From Phenylobacterium sp. (lineage in GTDB: Bacteria; Pseudomonadota; Alphaproteobacteria; Caulobacterales; Caulobacteraceae), in contig NZ_JAUYOJ010000215.1 in the NCBI RefSeq assembly GCF_030697925.1, forward strand, positions 26,918 to 90,917: 64,000 bases of DNA, read 5' to 3'. The translations under genes and the position numbers were made by a program. Positions 1,635 through 58,412 of the stretch are shown here, piece after piece (position 1 is the first letter of the stretch; each line of letters opens with the position of its first letter). The notes under the pieces are model-generated. The model did no database searches, was not told where the DNA came from, and was given only the letters and a program-made list of their open reading frames with translations.

Positions 1635-3511
1635 GAGTGATCGGCGCTCCTGTGGCCGTTCGTCGCCTGGGCGACGAGGGCCAGGACCCGGTCGGGGGCG
1701 GCGAGTTCATGTGCGAGCAAAAGGGCGAGGCGCGCCAGGGTGTCCCGATCATCGCCCGGCCCGGCATCCAGGCCGCGGCTCAAGGCCTCGAAGATCCGCT
1801 CGAGGTCGGTGGGGACTGATTGGAAATCGGCGTCCATCGCCGCGACCGGCGATCCGGATGGTGGGCTATCGCCCAGCGCCAGACGTAGCGCTGCGCACAG
1901 CGCATTGGGATCGGCCGCTGGTAGGCGCGCCGCAACATGCTCGTCCGGTCGGACCAGATATAGAGGCACGTCCTGCGCGGCGAAGGCGGCAGCCAGCCGG
2001 CCGCCGTCGTCGATGACAGCTGGATGAGGCCCGCACGCCGACGAGGTCGATACCAGCACGGGGCTGACTAGCGGCGGGAGCCCGGCCAGCAGTGCGTTCA
2101 CTTTGGCCTCCTCGATGTGGTCCCGGAAGATCAGCAAGGTGAAGGCCTGCCTGGCCAAGACGTCATGGAGGTGGGCTGCGCGCGGGCCACCTTCGTCGAC
2201 GATGCTGGCCGGCAAGTTGGGGATGACAGCGCCTGGTCGGACTCCGACGGGCACCTGGTCGTGGGCGACGACAGGCGAGGTGTCATAAACGTGGGCGGAA
2301 GACTGGCGTGGGTTGAGCAGCGCTCCGGCCCAGGCGACGTCGGTCGCCAGCGACAGCACCGCATCGCGCATCACGCGGAAGCCTTCGGTGGGTGGCGACA
2401 TGAACCAGGTGCTCTTGGTCGCTGCAGCGAGGTTTTCGCGCGTCGCGCGCAACCGTTCGGCGGTGTAGCTGTCGAGGAGCGGTAGGTCGGCGTGCCCGCG
2501 CGCGACTAGGGCCAGCTTCCAGGCCAAGTTGTGAGCGTCATCGAAACCAGAGTTGAGGCCGCGGACCCCAAAGATTGGGACGAGGTGAGCGGCGTCGCCC
2601 GCGAACATCACACGCCCGTGGCGGTAGTTGGCCAACGTCAGGGCATGGGCGCGGTACACGCTCTTCCACACCATTCGCCAGCCACCGGTCACGCCCATCA
2701 TGTCCAGGTGAGCCTGGATGCGCGGAGCGAGCTTGTGGTCCTGCAGCGCGAGCTCCGCGTCCTCCTCGTCCCCGAGCTGGATGTCGATCCGCCACATGTC
2801 GTCAGGCTGGACGTGCAGAATCACCGTGGAGCCCGGATTGGAAGGAGGGTCGAACCAGACCAGCCGTTCGACGGGCAGATTGGGCGCCGCCACGGAGATG
2901 TCCGCGATCAGGTATCGACCTTCGTAACTGCTGCCTTCGAGCGACAGGCCCAGGCTTCCCCGGACCCGCGAGCGTCCACCGTCGGCCGCGACGACCCAGG
3001 CGGCGTCGAGCTCATACGAACCTGCCGGCGACGAGACGACCAGCCTGACACCGCTGATGTCCTGAACGACCTCGGCCACCGCGTGGTCCCGCCTAATCTC
3101 GAGAGCAGCGGCGCCGAGGGCTTCTGCGCGGTCGAGGAGGACACGCTCCGTGCGGTACTGTTGGATGTTGACGAATGGCGCGTGCCGATCGGACGGCTCC
3201 CGCGGCATCTCCAGCTGAAACGCTAAGGCGTCACGATGGAAGGTCTTGCCGCGCGACCAGGGCAACGCTTGCGCCGAGAAGGACGGGCCAACGCCGGCAC
3301 GGTCGAGAATTTCCTGGCTGCGGCGGGAGATACAGATCGCCCGGCTAGTCCAGGTCGCTTCGGCCGCGGCCTCCAGCACAAGTGGGCGCAGTCCGAAGGC
3401 GGCTAAGTCGAGGGCGATGACCAACCCCACTGGGCCGGCGCCCACGACAACGACATCGAATGTCTCAGGTGACGGCATGATGGCGGACACGCGTGGGCCA
3501 GTTCTGGGCAA
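1631..3511 (-). CDS. FAD-dependent aromatic monooxygenase (MhpA/PheA-TfdB-like)
   Basis: [25 protein letters not shown] motif [50 protein letters not shown]; 4-bp overlap with hmgA. Confidence 0.85.
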
Positions 3512-3544
3512 GGTCAGGTCTTCGGGATGCGACGCGGACAGGGC

Positions 3545-4738
3545 TCAAGTGGCGCCCGGCGGACGCTGGTCGTCGGGCGCGGTGCCGGAGAATGCGATCA
3601 ACGCTCCCGCGGACAGCCCGGTGGGAGGATAGATCACCTGCGTGTTGATGCGCCGCTTGAGCGCCTTCCCCTCATCGCCGGAATACAGCACCCGACGGTC
3701 CCACCCCTCGGTAAGCACAGCACCCGACCGGCCCAGGTCGAGACAGGTGACATAGCGGGCCTGCTCATAGGGAAGACCGGGCAGCCCCAGGAGGTCGCGC
3801 GCGGCGTTCTCGCCGGCGAAGCGGCCGAGCTGCAAAGCGTGCTGACAGGATTGGAGGGTCGCATGGTCGCCGCCGGTCTCTGCCGTTGCTGCATCACCAG
3901 TCACAAAGACTTTCGGCGCCGCAGGCGCGCGCAGCGTCGTATCGACCTTAAGCCGTCCGAGGCTGTCGCGCTCGCCAGGCACACATTCGGCGAAAGGCGC
4001 CGCGACCATCCCCGTCGTCAGGACGATCGCGTCACCTGTGAGCGTTGATCCATCGGCGAAGCTGATCGCGTTGGTCGAAAAGGACATGATATTTGCGCCG
4101 AGCCGCAGTTCGACGCGCGCCGTTACGAGAGCCTCTTCGATCACCGGCCGCGGGCCTTCGCCCAGTTCCGATCCAACGACGAGAGCGCGATCAACCAGAA
4201 CGATCTTCATCCGTTCGCCCAGGGCGGCGTTGCCCAGAGCGGCCATCCGATCACGGAGCTCAAGCGCCAGTTCGATGCCGGTGAACCCAGCGCCCACGAC
4301 GATGACCGTAGCGGTCGCTGGTGACGCCTCGCAAAGCACCGCTAGTCGTCGGTCAAGGGCGATGGCCTCGTCCTGGGTATCGATCGAATGGGCGAGGAGC
4401 GCGCCGGGAACCGGCGGTCGGCGCATGACGCTCCCTGTCGCCACCACGAGGCGGTCGAAGCCAATCCGCTTGCCGGAGCGCAGGCGTACTTCGGAAGCGG
4501 ACACATCCAGACCGACCGCGTCGCCTGCAATGAACTGCACTCCGGCGGCGCCGAGCAGTGGTAACAGATCGACGCCGAGGGTCTCTGGCTGGGCTTCGTA
4601 GAGGCGCGGACGCATCTGCAGGATCGGCTCGCGCGAGACGACAGACACCGTCGCCCGGTCGCCGGCGACACGCCGAGCGGCGAGCGCCGCCCAGAAGCCG
4701 GCGAAGCCGCCGCCAACGATCAGCAACTGGTCCGGCAT
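3545..4738 (-). CDS. NAD(P)/FAD-dependent oxidoreductase (Ndh/ferredoxin-reductase-like)
   Basis: LLIVGGGFAGFWAALAARRV N-terminal FAD motif, second Rossmann VIVVGAGFTGIELALEL, VFVTGDAA. Confidence 0.85.
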   Translation of the reverse strand: MPDQLLIVGGGFAGFWAALAARRVAGDRATVSVVSREPILQMRPRLYEAQPETLGVDLLPLLGAAGVQFIAGDAVGLDVSASEVRLRSGKRIGFDRLVVATGSVMRRPPVPGALLAHSIDTQDEAIALDRRLAVLCEASPATATVIVVGAGFTGIELALELRDRMAALGNAALGERMKIVLVDRALVVGSELGEGPRPVIEEALVTARVELRLGANIMSFSTNAISFADGSTLTGDAIVLTTGMVAAPFAECVPGERDSLGRLKVDTTLRAPAAPKVFVTGDAATAETGGDHATLQSCQHALQLGRFAGENAARDLLGLPGLPYEQARYVTCLDLGRSGAVLTEGWDRRVLYSGDEGKALKRRINTQVIYPPTGLSAGALIAFSGTAPDDQRPPGAT

Positions 4739-48749: not shown

Positions 48750-49020
48750 ATGGGCACGCTCTACGTCGGTCTCGACGTTCACAAGGTCAGCATCTCGGTC
48801 AGCGTCGCGGAGGATGGCCGAGATGGCGCCGTCCGGTTCCTGGGCGAAGTCCCCAACACGCCGACGGACGTCGCCAAGCTGGCCAAGCGGCTGGCGAAGG
48901 ACGGCGACCCGTTGGAGTTCTGCTATGAGGCCGGCTGTTGCGGCTACGGCATTCACCGCCAGCTCACCGAGCTCGGGCACGGCTGTATGGTGGTGGCGCC
49001 GAAGCTCACCAACTCGATGT
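48750..49020 (+). pseudogene. IS110-family transposase N-terminal fragment
   Basis: YVGLDVHKVSISVSVAEDG...FCYEAGCCGYGIHRQLTELGHGCMVVAPKLT, then unrelated residues and a stop; no transposase_20 C-terminal domain. Confidence 0.85.
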
Positions 49021-49090
49021 CCACGGCACCCTGTGGATTCTCGTTCAAGGTCAATAATGACCGAGGTGTCCGAGACGAGCACGGCCATGC

Positions 49091-50146
49091 TTAGGCCGCC
49101 TCTTCAAGGCGAGCGTCCAGCTCCCGCACGGAGATACCCAACATCTCAGCCGCGCGACTTTCACCGATGACGTTCTCAGCCAAGGCGCGGAGACACAGGC
49201 GTTCGAAGCGCTTCGGTTCTTCCTCCTCAGCGGCCATACACGCAGGTTCTTCGAAGGGCGGTCGCCGCCAACCCCGCGTCGTGAATTCTCGATAGAGCGC
49301 GGAAAAGGCCTTGGCGTCGATGATGCCAAGATCCCTGCAACGAAACGCAATTGCCTGCACACTCACGCCGAAGCGCTTCTTCAGCGCTACGAGTTCGCCC
49401 AGGCTGATCATCGATCGGTGTGCCCCGACCTCGGCGCGGACAACGTCGGCGGGCATGAGAAAAGCGCCCGCAAAGCGGTGTGCGGCCTTCTCTTCATCCA
49501 CACCCGGCGCCGGCGTCATCACCATGTGGCCCAGCTCGTGAGCGAGCGTGAATCGCTTGCGTTCGGCCCATATATTCCGGCGCACCACCACGACCCGTGC
49601 CGCGTCGCGGCCGTGCCGTCGAACGCGTGCGGCCAAGCCGTCGATGTCCTCCAGATCAAGTGAGAGCACCTTGATGCCGCGCTCTTCCAGGAGCTCGGCG
49701 AGCTTTGGAATGGGGTCGTGGCCCAGCCCCCATTCATCGCGCACCGATCGGGCGGCGTCCTCGGCGTCACGGATGTCGCTCACCGGATAGGGGGCGCTAC
49801 GCGGCTGTTCCCAATCGACGCTCTTCAGCTGCAGCAGGTCCTCGATCGCCAGGTAGCGTTCGAGCATCTGTATGGTCAGCGCTTCGACCGTCGCCTCTTC
49901 CTTCGCCGAGGTCTTTTTCCGGAAGTCGACGCCTTCGAGCACAAGCTCTTCGTCACTCAGCAGATAGCCTTCGCTGACCTGCAGCGCGGATGCCAACGCG
50001 ATCAGCACCCGCGACCCTGGCATGTCCTCGTTGCGCTCGTACTTGCCGATAGCCTGAGCCGTCACCAAGCCGTCCATGCGAGCCGAAAGCTCGCGCAACG
50101 ACAGGCCGGCAGAGGCTCGCGCCACCTTCAATCTCCGTCCGATCAT
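49091..50146 (-). CDS. fused XRE HTH - ImmA/IrrE (M78) metallopeptidase regulator
   Basis: HTH: IGRRLKVARASAGLSLRELSARMDGLVTAQAIGKYERNEDMPGSRVLIALASAL; protease: ERKRFTLAHELGHMVMTP...KAAHRFAGAFLMP. Confidence 0.93.
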   Translation of the reverse strand: MIGRRLKVARASAGLSLRELSARMDGLVTAQAIGKYERNEDMPGSRVLIALASALQVSEGYLLSDEELVLEGVDFRKKTSAKEEATVEALTIQMLERYLAIEDLLQLKSVDWEQPRSAPYPVSDIRDAEDAARSVRDEWGLGHDPIPKLAELLEERGIKVLSLDLEDIDGLAARVRRHGRDAARVVVVRRNIWAERKRFTLAHELGHMVMTPAPGVDEEKAAHRFAGAFLMPADVVRAEVGAHRSMISLGELVALKKRFGVSVQAIAFRCRDLGIIDAKAFSALYREFTTRGWRRPPFEEPACMAAEEEEPKRFERLCLRALAENVIGESRAAEMLGISVRELDARLEEAA

Positions 50147-50158
50147 CGCCTGCTCCTA

Positions 50159-50281
50159 ATCTGTCGGTTTACAGATAACATATCTAGGCGCAATTTTGTA
50201 AACCGATACCCCTTGCGGTCGCCTGAGTTATCCCCATCTGCAGATCGACATAACGCTGTTTCGGCCCATTCTGTAAACCGA
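50159..50281. promoter_or_regulatory. divergent CBASS promoter region with three TGTAAACCGA elements
   Basis: TCGGTTTACA 50164-50173; TGTAAACCGA 50197-50206 and 50272-50281; first lies inside palindrome ATCTGT-CGGTTT-ACAGAT (50159-50176). Confidence 0.7.
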
Positions 50282-50288
50282 GGAGCCT

Positions 50289-51545
50289 ATGGCTTGGACG
50301 AACCCGGGGGGCGTCTCTCGTCCCGACGACCCCTTCGCCGATCCGCTGGATGCGGTCCTGGCGGAGATCGCCATCAACATCCAGCTGCCACCTGGTCTTC
50401 ATGCGAAGGCCGTCGGCCGCTATGAGGCCGTCCGGCGCTACATCGAACGGCCCGGCAGTCCGCTAGAGGGCCGCGTGACCTGCTTCTACCCGCAGGGGTC
50501 TATGCGGATCGACGCGACGACCTCCACCCGCGGGACCGATGACGAATATGATCTCGACATTGTCGCTGAAATCGACGGCCGCGACGATGGTCCCGAGGCT
50601 CTCCTGGATGATCTTGAGGCGGCGCTAGCCGACTACCCGGTTCGCAAGATCGTGCGTCAGACCCGCTGTGTGACTCTCTACTACTCGGATGGGATGCACC
50701 TCGACATCACCCCGGCCCGGCGCACGGCGCCGAAGGAAAAGCAGGGGGTGATCGCCCACGCGAAGAAGGGCGCGCAGAGCGACGAGCCCCGCTATGTAGC
50801 GATGAACGCCTACGCCTTCGGCGAGTGGTACACGGCCAGGACGCCAGTCGAGGAACGCTTCGCCAAGGCCCTGAACCAGCGCCTCTACGAGGAGGCAGGC
50901 CTGGAGTTCGCCGCTGACGCGGATGTCCATGACGTTCCCGATCAGACGCCCTTGATCATCAAGAGCGTCACCACGGTGGCTCTGCAGCTCCTCAAGCGTC
51001 ACCGCAACATCATCTACGCTAACGAGACCGGCCGCCTGCCGCCGTCGGTGCTCCTGTCGTGTCACGCCGGCCATGCAGCCCAGCCGGGCATGGGCCTAGC
51101 GGAGATGGTGATGCGGCAAGCCCGGTGGACGGCGCGGGCCATCGACAATGCGGCACAAGGTGGGCGTTTGCTGTCGGTGCCCAATCCAGAGTACCCGGCG
51201 GAGTACTTCACCGACCGCTGGCCGGAAACCCAGTCGCAACAGGTCACCTATGCCCGTCGGTTGCACGCCCTGGCCAACGGCCTGGAGGCGGCCCGCAAGG
51301 GCAATGTCCAGCTCGAAGACCTACAGATCTGGCTGCGTCTGCAGTTTGGCGAGCGCGTCGTGACCCGGTCGGTGAAAGCCTTCAACGATCGGCTTGGCAG
51401 GCAGGTTAAGGCTGGCCAGCAGGGCTATACGCGCTCGGGTGGGCTGTTCACGCCGGCGGCGCCCGCGATCATCGGTGTCGCCACGGGCCTCGCGCCCGTC
51501 GCCGCTCGTGCCCACACCAACATGGGCGAGCGGCGGTTCCGTTGA
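50289..51545 (+). CDS. CBASS CD-NTase (cGAS/DncV-like nucleotidyltransferase)
   Basis: FYPQGSMRIDATTSTRGTDDEYDLDIVAEID (GS...DxD) and third acidic site MHLDITPAR; upstream of E2-like and HNH-SAVED genes. Confidence 0.92.
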   Translation: MAWTNPGGVSRPDDPFADPLDAVLAEIAINIQLPPGLHAKAVGRYEAVRRYIERPGSPLEGRVTCFYPQGSMRIDATTSTRGTDDEYDLDIVAEIDGRDDGPEALLDDLEAALADYPVRKIVRQTRCVTLYYSDGMHLDITPARRTAPKEKQGVIAHAKKGAQSDEPRYVAMNAYAFGEWYTARTPVEERFAKALNQRLYEEAGLEFAADADVHDVPDQTPLIIKSVTTVALQLLKRHRNIIYANETGRLPPSVLLSCHAGHAAQPGMGLAEMVMRQARWTARAIDNAAQGGRLLSVPNPEYPAEYFTDRWPETQSQQVTYARRLHALANGLEAARKGNVQLEDLQIWLRLQFGERVVTRSVKAFNDRLGRQVKAGQQGYTRSGGLFTPAAPAIIGVATGLAPVAARAHTNMGERRFR

Positions 51546-51985
51546 GCCTCAGCATCGATCGTCAGATTGACGCGATGGCGCAGGTTTGGCCGGCGTTCCA
51601 ATTGGTCGGTCGCGAAGGCGCTGCCGCGGCCTGGCGGGGGCGGCTGCGCCCCCTGCTGCAGACCTATGTTATTGAAATCCACTATCGGGCGCCGCTGGTT
51701 GTCGAGCGCCTCAACGTGAAGATACTCCAGCCGAAGGTCTATGTGCTGTCGCCGGCGCTAAGGTGTCGCCCCGGAGATGCCGAGGGCATGCTGCCGCACG
51801 TCTATTCTGGCCCCGATGGCGATGTGACCCTTTGCATGCTCGATCCTGACGCGGGCGAATGGTCGCCCTACGATCTCCTGGCCGAGACGACGGTGCCGTG
51901 GATTATTGACTGGCTGGCCGCCTACGAAGGATGGCGGGCGACCGGCACCTGGACGGCGAGCGGTCGGCACGTGGAGCCGCACTAA
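51542..51985 (+). CDS. CBASS E2-like (ubiquitin-conjugating-fold) protein, short Cap2
   Basis: [18 protein letters not shown]...[60 protein letters not shown], bacterial E2-like pattern with candidate catalytic Cys; no E1 domain; TTG start overlapping CD-NTase stop. Confidence 0.8.
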
Positions 51986-53118
51986 TGGCCAAGACCAGCA
52001 TCCCCCAAAAGGTTCAGTCGGCGCTCTGGGCGCGGGCGGGCGGCCGGTGCCAATTCCGCGGCTGCAACGAGGATCTGATCGGCGATCTTGTGGCGGGTCG
52101 CGAGGACGGCACTTTCGGCTTCATCGCTCACATCGTCGCCGACAGCGTACAGGGCCCACGCGGCGATCCGGTTCGCTCTCCCCTCCTGGCGAGGAGCCTC
52201 GAAAATCTGATGTTGATGTGCGCGCGCCACCACAAGCTGATCGATGTGGATGCCCTCGCAGACTACCCTGAGCCGATGCTGATCGGCATGAAGGGCGAAC
52301 ACGAGAGCCGCATTGGCGTGGTGACCGCGATTGACCACGACCGAGCGTCACACGTCATCCGGTTCGGGGCGAACATCGGAGAAAACGAAGCACTCGTCTC
52401 GACCAAGGCGATCTTCATGGCTATGCCGCCCGATCATCATCCGGCGAGTGGCCAAACCATCGACCTTGAGATGACCGGTTGCACATACCGCGATGACGAA
52501 GCGGCTTACTGGATGTTCCAACGGGATAATTTGCGTCGGCAGTTTGAGGCGAAGGTCCGCGGCCGCATCGAGCGGCAGGAAGTGCGGCATCTGAGCGTCT
52601 TCGCTTTGGCGCCTCAGCCGCTGTTGATCGAGCTTGGCAGACTGCTTTGCGATATCGCCCCCGCCGTGGTCCGACAACGCCATCGGGAGCCACCAACATG
52701 GTCTTGGCAGGCGAACCAGCCGCGTATCGACTATCGGGTGTCAGAGCCCACGCCAGAACGGACCGGCCCCATCGCGTTGAAACTGGGCATCAGCGCGACT
52801 TTGACCAATGAGCCGATCACCGAACTGCTCGGTCCTGACGTCGCTATCTGGTCGGTGACGGCCGACAATCCGCACAACGACATCCTGCGCCACCCCGACG
52901 ATCAGGTCGTCTTCCGCCAGACGCTGCGTCGGCTTCTCGATCGCATCAAGACGACCCACGGCGAAGGTCAGTTGATCCACGTCTTTCCGGCGATGCCGGC
53001 GTCCTTGGCAGTTGAACTTGGGCGCATCTGGATGCCGAAGGCGGATTTGGCCATGACGATCTACGACAAGAACCGTACCGCCGGTTTCATGCCCACGATC
53101 ACTTTAGGCCGCGATTGA
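51985..53118 (+). CDS. cap5: CBASS effector HNH-SAVED nuclease (Cap5-like)
   Basis: [13 protein letters not shown]...[49 protein letters not shown]-terminus: [36 protein letters not shown]; start overlaps E2-like stop (TAATG). Confidence 0.92.
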
Positions 53119-53245: not shown

Positions 53246-54445
53246 TCAGAGGGCCAGGCCTCGCAGCGCCGTCATCAGGCAGCCGTACGTGATGCGCTCC
53301 TGCTCCAGGCGGACGTGGTCGCCGTATCGGTTCAGCTTCAAATCCTCGAATAGCCGACGCTCAGCCTCGGACAGTCGCGGCAGTTCGCCGACAAACGGTC
53401 GCTCTTCCCGGACCCAGAGCGACCGGTGGGTGAGGAGCGTTGCTTCGTCCATCAACAGCGACTGCGCCGTCGGGAAATAGGCCCGCAGACGTGCCAACAT
53501 GGCGAAGCCGTGCGTGTCGATGTCGCCCCAATAGACGAGGCAAGACCGCCTGAGCCATTCGGCCTTCGCCAGCAGGTCCAGGCTATAGCCGAGTCCGAAC
53601 AGTACCACCGCCTCATCGACCGGTGGGAAGGCGAGCCCATTCACCTCGTTCTCTGTGATGAAGACGACCCGCGGATTCAGGTCGAGACGTGCGAACTCCT
53701 CCGCCGGCGTGCTGACGTCAGACAGCCCCGCGAACAAGGTTTGCCCGTCGAGAAGCCGGAAACGGACCGTCGCCGGTTTGTTGCGCAAGCCGTAGCGGCC
53801 TTCAAATGTGAAGGCGTTGCCGGGTGCCGTCTCGCTGGAGGGCGGCGACATGACGACATCCAGCAGCTCCGTGAGCAGACCCCGTCGGCCCTCTATGAAC
53901 TTCGTGTCGATTTGCGGGATGTCCACCTGCCGCAGGTACAGTCCGGACCTCGGGTTCTGTCGGAACCAGGCGAGAACCGCGAGGATGCGCGTCCAGTCCG
54001 CGGCGTGCTCCAGCGCCAGCAGGGGTTTCCGCGCGAGCCACGGCAGGAGTTCGGGGAAGGCTGTTGCTGTGGCGCGCGCGAGCGCGTCGAAACGCTTAGC
54101 GTCCGCCTGCTTTCGAATCAGCTGCAGAGCGTCCGCCTCGGTCGGCACCACGATCTCCGAAGGGAGACGATTGCGACCCAGTTGACGGTGTCGTACCTCG
54201 CGCCAGACGAGATCGAAACCGAAGCCGCGCGCGGTTCGGCTGGCCGCCTCCAGAGCGCGGACCCACGTCTGGGCGTCCCCGAAGCGTGCCGCCAGCGCCG
54301 AACTATCGGGGCCCCGCACGTGCATGCGGAGCGGGAAGATCGCCTCGCCAGTCACCTTTGCGGAGAGGATACGCCCCTTGAGCCAGAGCTTGAGGACCGA
54401 GGCCTCGACGTCCTCGGCGCACATCCAAGCATGGTCGATGGTCAT
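53246..54445 (-). CDS. jetD: Wadjet JetD (DUF3322/DUF2220, TOPRIM-like nuclease)
   Basis: RVVFITENEVNGLAFPPVDEAVVLFGLGYSLDLLAKAEWLRRSCLVYWGDIDTHGFAMLARLRAYFPTAQSLLMDEATLLTH. Confidence 0.93.
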   Translation of the reverse strand: MTIDHAWMCAEDVEASVLKLWLKGRILSAKVTGEAIFPLRMHVRGPDSSALAARFGDAQTWVRALEAASRTARGFGFDLVWREVRHRQLGRNRLPSEIVVPTEADALQLIRKQADAKRFDALARATATAFPELLPWLARKPLLALEHAADWTRILAVLAWFRQNPRSGLYLRQVDIPQIDTKFIEGRRGLLTELLDVVMSPPSSETAPGNAFTFEGRYGLRNKPATVRFRLLDGQTLFAGLSDVSTPAEEFARLDLNPRVVFITENEVNGLAFPPVDEAVVLFGLGYSLDLLAKAEWLRRSCLVYWGDIDTHGFAMLARLRAYFPTAQSLLMDEATLLTHRSLWVREERPFVGELPRLSEAERRLFEDLKLNRYGDHVRLEQERITYGCLMTALRGLAL

Positions 54446-57400
54446 GCGGTGCGCAGCAGCCGTTCCTGCCGATATTCCTCGATCGATAGATTCCGCAGCA
54501 TGGAGCGCTTTCCGCCCTCATTGTGGACAAACCCGACGGCCGCGACGAACGGCTCGATGGTATGGATCTTCTGCAGGGGCGTGACGATGAGGAGCTGCAG
54601 GTCCAGCTCGCGGAACAGCTCCAGACCGTAGCGCGTGGATTCGTCGGAGCCGCGACCGAAGGCTTCGTCGATCAAGACAAAGTGGAACGAGCGCGACTGT
54701 GAGGCGCCGACCTCGAGACCGAACTGGTAGGCGAGGCTCGCGGCGAGCACCGTGTACGCCAGTTTCTCCTTCTGCCCTCCCGATTTCCCGCCGGAGTCCG
54801 CATAGTGCTCGAACTCGGTGTCGTCCTCGCGCCAACGCTCAGAGGCCGAGAACACAAACCAACTGCGCACATCGGTGACCTTGCGGCTCCAGCGCTTGTC
54901 GAGTTCCGCCGACCCTTCGCGGCCCCGGAAGCGTTCGATGATCCGCTTCACTTGGAGGAACTTGGCTTCGGAGTAGTCGCCATCATCCGATCCGGTGAGG
55001 GCGCCTTCGGTGCAGGCCCGTAGGTCCTGCTGAAAGTCCCGAATTTCGATGTCGCTGTTGGGCTCGGCTTCGAGGACGATGTAGCGGCCGGGATTGTAGG
55101 CGATGCCGCGCAGGGACTGGTTGATCCGGTCGATGCGCTCGCGGATCGTCTCGCGCTCGCGGGCGAGCTGCGACTGGAAGTTCGCCACTTCGCGGATCGT
55201 GTTCTCGTTCAGCAGGGCCTTGAAGCGCGCTTCGAACCGCGGAAGATCGTCAGTCCTAAGGGCGGCCAGCATGGTTCGATATTCGCCGCTCGCCTCGATC
55301 GCAGCATCCACGTCGCGGGTCTCGAGCGGATAGGTCGCCTTGTAGGCCTGCATGGCGCTAATGATCCGATCGCGCAGGCGCGCGATCCGGCGATCCTCAG
55401 TATCGATGTGAGTCTGCAGCCAGTCGCGAAGCTCGCGCTCGCGGGCGTCGCAGTTCTCGATCGTGAGTTTATGGTCGCCCAGCGCTTCTGTCCGGAGACC
55501 ATCCAGACGTGGGAAGACGACCTCCTGAAGATGTGCCGTGGCGACAGCCGCCTCCTCGCTCACGATCCTAAGCAGCTCGCCGTCCACACGACGACGTTCC
55601 TCGATCCGCGCCTGCTCGGCGATCGCGCCCTGGTGGCGCGTCGTGATCGCCTGGATCTCCTGCTCGATCTCGCTGAGCTTCGCCGTTAGGGTCTTGAGCG
55701 CGTCCGACCCCTCCTGCAGTTGCCGGCGCTCCTGCGCGAGCTTGTCGATGTTGATCGCGATAGGACGCCAGTCCAGCTCGGCGAAATCGTTGAACACCGA
55801 CAACTGGCTCAGGTTGTTGAGCCTGTCGGCCAAAGCACGCCTCTTGGTCGTCAGCTGCGCAATCAGGGCCGCGATGGCGGCGGAGCGCTGTTCGAGATCG
55901 CCGATCTTCTTTGTCAGGGCCGCGATCTTGGCTTGGTTCGACCAGCCGAGGACGTAACGTGTGCGATCGTCCAGACGATGCCGATCGTCCTTCTCGTGAC
56001 GTTCACCGTTGGCCTTCAACTGCCCAGTCCGCGTTAAGGCGCGCTCTTCCCGCCGGAATTGTTCCATCGTCGCGCAACAGGCGTAGTCGAAACGCCGCGA
56101 GAGCTCCGCCTCGAGCCATCCGTAGAATCCGGAGTCCGACTTGAGGGCCAGCTTCCGAACCAGCGAGAATTGATGAAGATGCGTGGTGACCGGACGCCGT
56201 TCCCGTACTCGGAAGTAGACCAGCCTGTCGCCGATATGAGTCTGATCGACCCAGTCCGCTACGTCTGCGTAAGCGTCGTCGGGCACGAGCAGGGACAGCG
56301 CGAAGCCGTGCAACACCCTCTCAGCCGCGCCTTCCCACGCGCGTTCTTCCGGCCGGACCTCGATCAACTCCCCGACGAAGGGAAGGTCAGTCTCGTCCAG
56401 GTCCAGAGCGAGGCAGAGCTCTTCTCGGATCTTCAGGGTTCGGCCCGGAATGTTGGAGCGGCGACGCCGCAGTGACTCCACTTCACCGGATAACTCCTCG
56501 TGCTCCTCCTTGAGCTTTCGGAACTCGATCTGCTTTTCGGTCAAGGCATTCTGGACGTCCGCTTCCTGCTCGTGGATGGCGGTCGTTTCGCTGTCGAGCT
56601 GCCGTCGGTTCGAGATGAAGGCGTCAACATCCTTGGCATCCGGCAGCCCGGCCGCCTTGGCAAGCTCTCCATATCGGTCCGCGCGCTTCGACCGTTCGTC
56701 GCGGGAGCGCGTCTGACGCTCGATCTCCACGCGCAGTGCTTCGATGTGGTCGCCGCCGTTTTCGCCAATGGCGCGCTTGACCTCGTCTCTTTGCGCCTCC
56801 TGATCGTTCAGCCGGGTTACAAGCCCCTGGCCACGGGCGATCGTGCGCTCCAGCTCGGCCTCTAGGTTCTCAAGCCGTGCACGCAACAGCCCGGCCTTGA
56901 GCCCGGAGAAGTACGGTCGCAGAGCGTCACGCGCGTCGCGGCGGATGACGACCTCGGCGGTCAGCTTCTCGAATTGGTCGCAGTCGTCGGCGAGCGGCCC
57001 CAGCTTTTCGATCTGGTCCTTGGCCTTCAAGACGGCTTCGTGCGCTCGGTGCAAATCCTGGAAGTGAGCGATGAGCGCGTCGATCCGGGGTTCGACGTCG
57101 AAAGGCTCAAGCATGTGCTGGCGTACGAAGTCGGTGAGGTTGCCAACGGCCTTCATGGAGACCGTTTGGTGAAAGAGGTCGAGCGCCTGATCGCTCTGAA
57201 TTCCGAACCGGCGCCGAAAGGCTGCGCCATATGGCGGGAAGCTGTCGTGGACTTCCACGGAGGGCATAGACCGCAGCTGCTTCTTCAGGGCAGCGACATC
57301 GCCGCCGAAGTCTTGGAAGTGCTCGGCGATCGAGAGCGGCCGGTCGGCGACGACATAGAAGCGCGATGGCTGTCCGTGGGGTTCTCGAAACCAGAAGACC

Positions 57401-57813
57401 TGCGCCAAGGTGACATCCTGGTCGAACGCCTCGTTGCGGAAGCGTCCGAGGATGACAGCGTAGGTCTTGTGATCGCGAAGCCCCACCGGCTTAGCGGAAT
57501 AGCCCGCGTCGCCGCGCTCGGACTTGAAATGGCCGAGGACATATGACCGGAGATCACGCTCGCGGGCCTCGGCCCCCGCCGCCTTGTTGTAGGCAATCTT
57601 CTGCGCCGGCACGAGCAGCGTCGTGACCGCGTCGACCAGGGTCGACTTGCCCGAGCCGATGTCGCCGGTCAGCAGGGTGTTCTCGCCGTTCACGTCGAGG
57701 CCCCAGACGCTGCCGTGGAACGTCCCCCAGTTCAGGACCTCGCATCTCTGCAGGCGCATGCCCGTGCGGGCGCGTTCGGGGGTAACGACGACGATGGCTG
57801 GAGCCTCGGTCAT
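54442..57813 (-). CDS. jetC: Wadjet JetC (SMC/MukB-like ATPase)
   Basis: LNWGTFHGSVWGLDVNGENTLLTGDIGSGKSTLVDAVTTLLVP (Walker A), coiled coils, SGGQKEKLAYTVLAASLAYQFGLE...FHFVLIDEAFGRGSDESTRYGLELF (signature/Walker B); ATG at 57813. Confidence 0.95.
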   Translation of the reverse strand: MTEAPAIVVVTPERARTGMRLQRCEVLNWGTFHGSVWGLDVNGENTLLTGDIGSGKSTLVDAVTTLLVPAQKIAYNKAAGAEARERDLRSYVLGHFKSERGDAGYSAKPVGLRDHKTYAVILGRFRNEAFDQDVTLAQVFWFREPHGQPSRFYVVADRPLSIAEHFQDFGGDVAALKKQLRSMPSVEVHDSFPPYGAAFRRRFGIQSDQALDLFHQTVSMKAVGNLTDFVRQHMLEPFDVEPRIDALIAHFQDLHRAHEAVLKAKDQIEKLGPLADDCDQFEKLTAEVVIRRDARDALRPYFSGLKAGLLRARLENLEAELERTIARGQGLVTRLNDQEAQRDEVKRAIGENGGDHIEALRVEIERQTRSRDERSKRADRYGELAKAAGLPDAKDVDAFISNRRQLDSETTAIHEQEADVQNALTEKQIEFRKLKEEHEELSGEVESLRRRRSNIPGRTLKIREELCLALDLDETDLPFVGELIEVRPEERAWEGAAERVLHGFALSLLVPDDAYADVADWVDQTHIGDRLVYFRVRERRPVTTHLHQFSLVRKLALKSDSGFYGWLEAELSRRFDYACCATMEQFRREERALTRTGQLKANGERHEKDDRHRLDDRTRYVLGWSNQAKIAALTKKIGDLEQRSAAIAALIAQLTTKRRALADRLNNLSQLSVFNDFAELDWRPIAINIDKLAQERRQLQEGSDALKTLTAKLSEIEQEIQAITTRHQGAIAEQARIEERRRVDGELLRIVSEEAAVATAHLQEVVFPRLDGLRTEALGDHKLTIENCDARERELRDWLQTHIDTEDRRIARLRDRIISAMQAYKATYPLETRDVDAAIEASGEYRTMLAALRTDDLPRFEARFKALLNENTIREVANFQSQLARERETIRERIDRINQSLRGIAYNPGRYIVLEAEPNSDIEIRDFQQDLRACTEGALTGSDDGDYSEAKFLQVKRIIERFRGREGSAELDKRWSRKVTDVRSWFVFSASERWREDDTEFEHYADSGGKSGGQKEKLAYTVLAASLAYQFGLEVGASQSRSFHFVLIDEAFGRGSDESTRYGLELFRELDLQLLIVTPLQKIHTIEPFVAAVGFVHNEGGKRSMLRNLSIEEYRQERLLRTA

Positions 57814-58412
57814 GCCTCTTCCGCCTCTCCGAGGCCTGCTCCATGCCGTCGATAAGCTTCCAGACGCTCGTTGTAATCGCTCAGCCACTGGGCATCCACG
57901 AACGCCTTCAGGATCCGCTGCACCTCATACAGCTCCTCGGTCGCGCGCATGCGGCGGAGGAACCCCATCTCCACGGCGCGGGCGATATGGCCGTCAATCC
58001 GAGTCCGCAGGCGTGCTTCATTGGTCGTGTCGGGCAGAAAGAGCCGCATCATTTCGAGGATGTCTTCCGGCCGGAGAACTAGTCGGGCATCGGCGCTGCT
58101 GGCGTCGAACTCCGCGAGCTTTTTCCGCAGTAGCGCCAATAGCAGGCTAACCCCGAAGCCGAGTTGGCGCCGCGGAACTAAGCGGGGGACGGCTTCGGCT
58201 TCCTCGGCGTCGTCGCGCTGGCGCAGATAGGCGAAGCCTTCCGCTTCATCGAGTACCAACTCCAGCCCGAGGACGCGCACGTACTCGCGGACGCGAGCCT
58301 GCAAACTAAGGACGTGCTGCCAGAGGGCGGGATCATCATCACGGTTCGTGACGCCTTTGAAGAGCGTGACCGTGACTACGGAGAACGGATCGGTGACGAC
58401 CTGACTGTTCAT
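57810..58412 (-). CDS. jetB: Wadjet JetB (DUF4194)
   Basis: Size, position and sequence: VTVTLFKGVTNRDDDPALWQHVLSLQARVREYVRVLGLELVLDEAEGFAYLRQ; 4-bp overlap with jetC. Confidence 0.92.
   Translation of the reverse strand: MNSQVVTDPFSVVTVTLFKGVTNRDDDPALWQHVLSLQARVREYVRVLGLELVLDEAEGFAYLRQRDDAEEAEAVPRLVPRRQLGFGVSLLLALLRKKLAEFDASSADARLVLRPEDILEMMRLFLPDTTNEARLRTRIDGHIARAVEMGFLRRMRATEELYEVQRILKAFVDAQWLSDYNERLEAYRRHGAGLGEAEEA

Follow-up and report, generated by a model that had tools for sequence, protein, structure and literature searches.

Among the closest described systems is CapH+CapP, an HTH repressor and an M78 protease associated with CBASS (Lau et al. 2022, as presented in PMC13373217). 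CapW/BrxR and CapK+CapS are interchangeable controllers found beside CBASS, BREX, and Bub, and the controllers CapH+CapP and CapW respond to DNA damage (PMC13373217). In RosmerTA, the antitoxin RmrA consists of an HTH and an ImmA/IrrE domain, and a PIN-like partner of ImmA antitoxins has been predicted (PMC10440598). RipAB/spr1629 has an HTH-ImmA/IrrE antitoxin as well (PMC12795458). HTH-ImmA/IrrE antitoxins, predicted PIN-like partners, and the control of CBASS by separate CapH and CapP are already known. In the literature searched, neither an account of a fused HTH-M78/PIN pair controlling CBASS nor a description of the TGTAAACC three-operator array was found; that literature does not include the 2015 SMODS survey or the main paper on CapH/CapP, and a prior mention is possible. 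Only a few of the controllers that keep lethal abortive-infection systems silent are known.

The window (the whole stretch of 64,000 nucleotides that was analysed) contains a type II-short CBASS, with a CD-NTase, an E2-only protein, and an effector in one operon. The CD-NTase, an oligonucleotide cyclase, is the first gene (50289-51545, +; PADLOC Cyclase, 5.8e-173) and is followed by the E2-like protein of type II-short CBASS (51542-51985, +; PADLOC E2, 1.1e-53) and the HNH-SAVED effector nuclease (51985-53118, +; PADLOC, 2.6e-158), the mechanical ORF of which runs from 51931, giving a start at 51931 or 51985. The CBASS operon is followed immediately by the convergent Wadjet genes JetD, JetC, and JetB (53246-58412, -), and the two together form a small defence island. 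Divergent from the operon is a regulator/antitoxin of 351 residues (49091-50146, -), in which an HTH_3 domain (residues 6-62) is fused to Peptidase_M78 (IrrE).

The regulator occupies the same position, divergent from CBASS, as CapH+CapP. The best structural matches of its HTH are P22 c2 and the N-domain of CapH (7t5u), and those of the M78 part are CapP (7t5t) and ssDNA-bound PprI (8sln). The HExxH motif and downstream glutamate of the M78 protease are found as HELGH at 203-207 and E219, both invariant, and the recognition-helix residues QAIGKYER are nearly invariant; the ORF is unbroken, and none of the conserved catalytic and HTH residues is missing. However, CapH and CapP are encoded by separate HTH and M78 genes, whereas the window has one fused ORF. 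Furthermore, the DNA motif described below is absent from CapH+CapP-type promoters, and a PIN toxin gene normally lies behind the fused regulator. Judged by its sequence, the regulator is a RosmerTA-like antitoxin. It matches 14 RmrA models of RosmerTA in PADLOC (best 1.2e-52), as expected of an RmrA-type antitoxin with HTH and ImmA/IrrE domains; the CapP match is weaker, and the match to the NCBIfam spr1629 family repressor/antitoxin falls below the family cut-off. As for the adjacent toxin gene of RosmerTA, only a rearranged PIN stub is present in the window. In contrast to RosmerTA, the toxin is a PIN protein without an RmrT match, destroyed in the window, and a third putative operator ties the present pair to CBASS or ubiquitin-like operons. 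A likeness to CapW/BrxR can also be seen, in that a CD-NTase of 46% identity has a WYL-domain protein at this place, but the protein families of both CapW/BrxR and CapK+CapS differ from that of the regulator.

Within the intergenic region, the original prediction had placed three copies of a 10-mer and read them as operators of the fused HTH-protease, providing autoregulation and silencing of CBASS. In the window, all three copies of TGTAAACCGA are exact and in the predicted places. In putative operator A (50164-50173, -), the word reads along the regulator strand and is separated from the start codon of that gene by 17 nt. Putative operator B (50197-50206, +) is inverted relative to A, with the left edges 33 bp apart. 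Putative operator C (50272-50281, +) lies in the CD-NTase leader, 75 bp past B; its predicted contact with the Shine-Dalgarno sequence of the CD-NTase gene holds, since its last base, an A, is also part of AGGAG, with the ATG at 50289. No further copy was found in the window with up to one mismatch. The three-fold repeat is not a product of chance, because, when the 142-bp intergenic region was simulated 20,000 times with an order-1 Markov model, a 10-mer of any kind reached three copies in only 5 cases, in agreement with the original claim that a chance origin is very unlikely. A motif common across the genome had been named as an outcome that would refute the prediction. The genome-wide scan that had been proposed (4.8 Mb, 251 contigs) returned only 4 exact copies, namely these three and one elsewhere, and so did not refute the prediction; the repeat is specific to this region. 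As the fourth copy sits inside a tRNA-Thr(TGT) gene, it is ruled out as the mark of a second regulated gene.

The palindrome ATCTGT-N6-ACAGAT around A (50159-50176, unstranded) is present as predicted, at a distance of 12 nt from the start of the regulator (50146), but its membership in the conserved site did not withstand comparison. It is specific to the window: in six close relatives, TGTAAACCG(A) is kept and ACAGAT is not. The palindrome is therefore ruled out as the true operator, and the 18-bp symmetry is probably incidental because it is absent from relatives. Conserved instead are the asymmetric TTTTGTAAACCGA and the inverted arrangement of A and B, approximately three helical turns apart. 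An asymmetric core is unusual for the operator of an HTH_3 dimer and counts against the operator reading; a dyad inside each 10-mer shows up only weakly, as TTGT-AA-ACAA in phage-borne relatives.

A GTDB genome scan with the regulator as query gave 80 loci at 56-93% identity, picked by the regulator (HTH_3 and M78 metalloprotease) with neighbours ignored. The three-site layout is apparent in nearly all of these loci when up to 2 mismatches are allowed. With a refined site model, sites above threshold were found for A in 79, for B in 80, and for C in 70 of 80 sequences (the window and 79 relatives); these counts are a description rather than a test, because these sequences also served to refine the model, and are not independent events, because many loci are closely related (L060-L077). 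The presence of the core in plasmid relatives of other phyla, at 37-42% identity, partly offsets this problem of kinship. The logo of the refined model is TTTTGTAAACCGA, in which TGTAAAC is almost invariant. In nearly all relatives, the core TGTAAAC(C) recurs in this layout, with A approximately 27 bp before the regulator, B inverted, and C usually beyond B, and with spacings across the 80 sequences of 32-34 bp between A and B and 72-76 bp between B and C. In the 150 bp upstream of the regulator (12.3 kb in total), the heptamer TGTAAAC was counted 208 times, or 16.9 per kb; the remaining 682 kb of these loci hold 27 copies (0.04 per kb). When the window is aligned with each of six close relatives, 28-30 of the 30 operator bases are identical, as against 54-67% of the remaining intergenic region.

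In 385 genomes of the class, a blind search was also made for the inverted pair, GTTTACA-N22-24-TGTAAAC. It matched in three genomes, and two of the matches, including the window's own, lie just upstream of the regulator; the second adjoins a 53-64%-identical regulator, directly upstream of it. Locus L147 (G324) holds the sole blind match without a detectable regulator homologue within its 3-kb locus. Three regulator homologues in the same sample (L150, L152, and L153) are without the exact inverted pair, indicating that the word drifts in some branches. An epsilonproteobacterial plasmid relative (L135, 37% identity) has two complete inverted motif pairs, 31-33 bp apart, between the regulator and a small divergent gene, and type I restriction genes adjoin.

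Site C was detected in 69 of the 77 relatives that have a recognised divergent operon, and these operons vary greatly in kind. They comprise type I CBASS with 2TM effectors, type II CBASS with HNH-SAVED, patatin, or E1-E2/JAB, type III CBASS with HORMA/TRIP13 and TIR or NucC, and ubiquitin-like conjugation operons, with MBL plus E2-E1-JAB among the operons having site C. In L053, L142, and some others, CBASS is present and site C is absent, which counts against the operator reading. Four type I CBASS loci (L028, L032, L034, and L145) have no site C at the usual place and share TGTAAACCGG near -222, close to the start of a small divergent ORF. A control locus has a CD-NTase, E2, and HNH-SAVED protein that are 82%, 70%, and 72% identical to those of the window, with separate HTH and M78 genes; TGTAAAC was found 0 times in its 4.2 kb. 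The core is likewise absent at plasmid CD-NTase homologues under CapH+CapP-like pairs or a WYL regulator. Since the sites are kept beside differing operons and are absent with other regulators, the motif follows the regulator rather than the operon. On the sequence evidence, the comparison bears out that the repeats are specific to this regulator and absent with others. The original prediction is supported in its view of the repeats as putative operators of the HTH-protease; the regulator, however, is not specific to this CBASS, as its relatives adjoin many CBASS kinds and ubiquitin-like operons.

The same comparison bears on a further possibility, that the sites are bound by another host factor or are a recombination or mobility sequence travelling with defence islands. 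The module is indeed mobile, being found on plasmids and in IS-rich contexts. However, the genome has only three copies outside the tRNA, and the sites stand at a fixed distance from the regulator start in many genera and are gone where another regulator substitutes, which leaves this explanation with only a slight chance of being correct. CapH+CapP-type pairs fill this very slot beside related CD-NTases (34-51% identity), and at L136, L137, L138, L139, and L140 the divergent slot next to a related CD-NTase holds either a CapH+CapP-like pair or a WYL regulator. The occurrence of such genes in one slot indicates that the CBASS control gene is exchanged while the cyclase stays.

Strongly supported by the comparison across relatives, the reading of the three 10-mers as operators of the divergent HTH-M78 protein is very probably correct, with A and B serving autoregulation and B and C the repression of CBASS. 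This division of roles follows from the placement of B at a presumed -35 position, of A over the presumed start, and of C in the leader. The TTTACA of site B appears to be placed like a -35 box on the regulator strand, and on the CBASS strand a conserved TTGAAA-like element follows B by a few bp, with C in the leader, touching the Shine-Dalgarno sequence. Because a scan of the window region for sigma-70 consensus promoters and terminators found none, the promoter positions are presumed ones. Site B would lie between these two divergent promoters. A and B together would repress the regulator gene, with A covering its start, and B and C, approximately seven helical turns apart, would flank the presumed CBASS promoter and leader and keep the operon down. 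The tight spacing between B and C allows looping, without proving it.

The resemblance of B to a -35 box raises the possibility that the repeats are promoter elements, TTTACA boxes kept for RNA polymerase and not for a repressor. In several relatives, the TTTACA of B is followed by a good -10 at 17 bp (for example, TATAAT in L083), and this likeness could explain part of the conservation of B, but not that of A or C. Moreover, the conserved core TTTGTAAACCG exceeds a hexamer, site C lies within the CBASS leader and points the wrong way for a CBASS -35, and the word is absent from CBASS promoters with other regulators, so that a promoter origin of the repeats is very unlikely. Activation rather than repression of CBASS by the regulator at these sites is also quite unlikely. 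The end of site B is a few bp upstream of the TTGAAA-like element of the CBASS strand, a place that activators also use, but A and C lie over or past the presumed starts, with C touching the Shine-Dalgarno sequence, and these positions are typical of repression; the regulators CapH+CapP and CapW of the same slot are repressors (PMC13373217).

With the regulator acting as a repressor, its inactivation would lead to the expression of CBASS. Inactivation may occur by ssDNA-stimulated proteolysis through the M78 domain, by analogy with CapH+CapP and PprI-DdrO. Proteolytic inactivation triggered by ssDNA is the leading hypothesis, since the folds match CapP and PprI and the module stands where CapH+CapP and CapW are otherwise found, and it is given somewhat less than an even chance.

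A PIN gene of full length, approximately 163 residues, lies directly behind the regulator in about 76 of 83 relatives. The PIN protein of relatives was modelled with an AF2 pLDDT of 95 and matches PIN/VapC folds, with D8, E41, D82, and D100 invariant; a sequence search of the PDB with this protein gave no meaningful match, whereas the fold search did. In most relatives, the regulator is likely also the antitoxin of this adjacent PIN toxin. What the window retains of the PIN gene is a 5' stub of approximately 16 codons (49041-49088, -), to which an inverted internal PIN fragment is joined (48997-49047, +; 76-78% identity to L006/L007), with the remnant of an IS110-family transposase at the broken gene (48750-48996, +). 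No second copy of the 48750-49088 stretch was found in the genome. With the PIN gene destroyed, only a control function can remain in the window. The loss could also mean that the regulator here is a relic which, its toxin gone, only autoregulates or is decaying, with control of CBASS incidental; considering that its ORF is intact with conserved catalytic and HTH residues and that all three operators are perfect, this is unlikely.

In relatives having the PIN gene, one event could release CBASS and toxin together, because the same protein is likely the PIN antitoxin. It is tentatively proposed, and with more doubt than confidence, that antitoxin and PIN toxin form a portable controller of nucleotide-signalling and ubiquitin-like immunity: one three-operator array would hold CBASS and toxin down, loss of the antitoxin on DNA damage or infection would free both, and the toxin would act as a fail-safe. 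The usual PIN toxin connects toxin-antitoxin biology to the control of CBASS. Since the module recurs beside type I, II, and III CBASS as well as ubiquitin-like operons, control modules and the effectors under their control seem to be swapped independently of each other. Because the DNA site and the single-chain repressor-protease are defined and the layout is conserved, the proposed switch lends itself to direct tests.

The neighbourhoods of the regulator are not limited to CBASS. In L078, L141, L020, and L021, the regulator and PIN gene adjoin ubiquitin-like operons, composed of multiubiquitin/E2/ThiF or of MBL plus E2-E1-JAB. Relatives without a CBASS or ubiquitin-like neighbour (L082, L083, the phage-borne L085-L086, and the plasmid loci L132, L133, L134, and L144) generally have A/B-like sites at most, some of them weak or differently spaced. 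At L082, where only A and B are found, the divergent neighbour of the regulator (2893-3750, -) encodes a protein of 286 aa without a PADLOC match, which is possibly an unrecognised defence gene.
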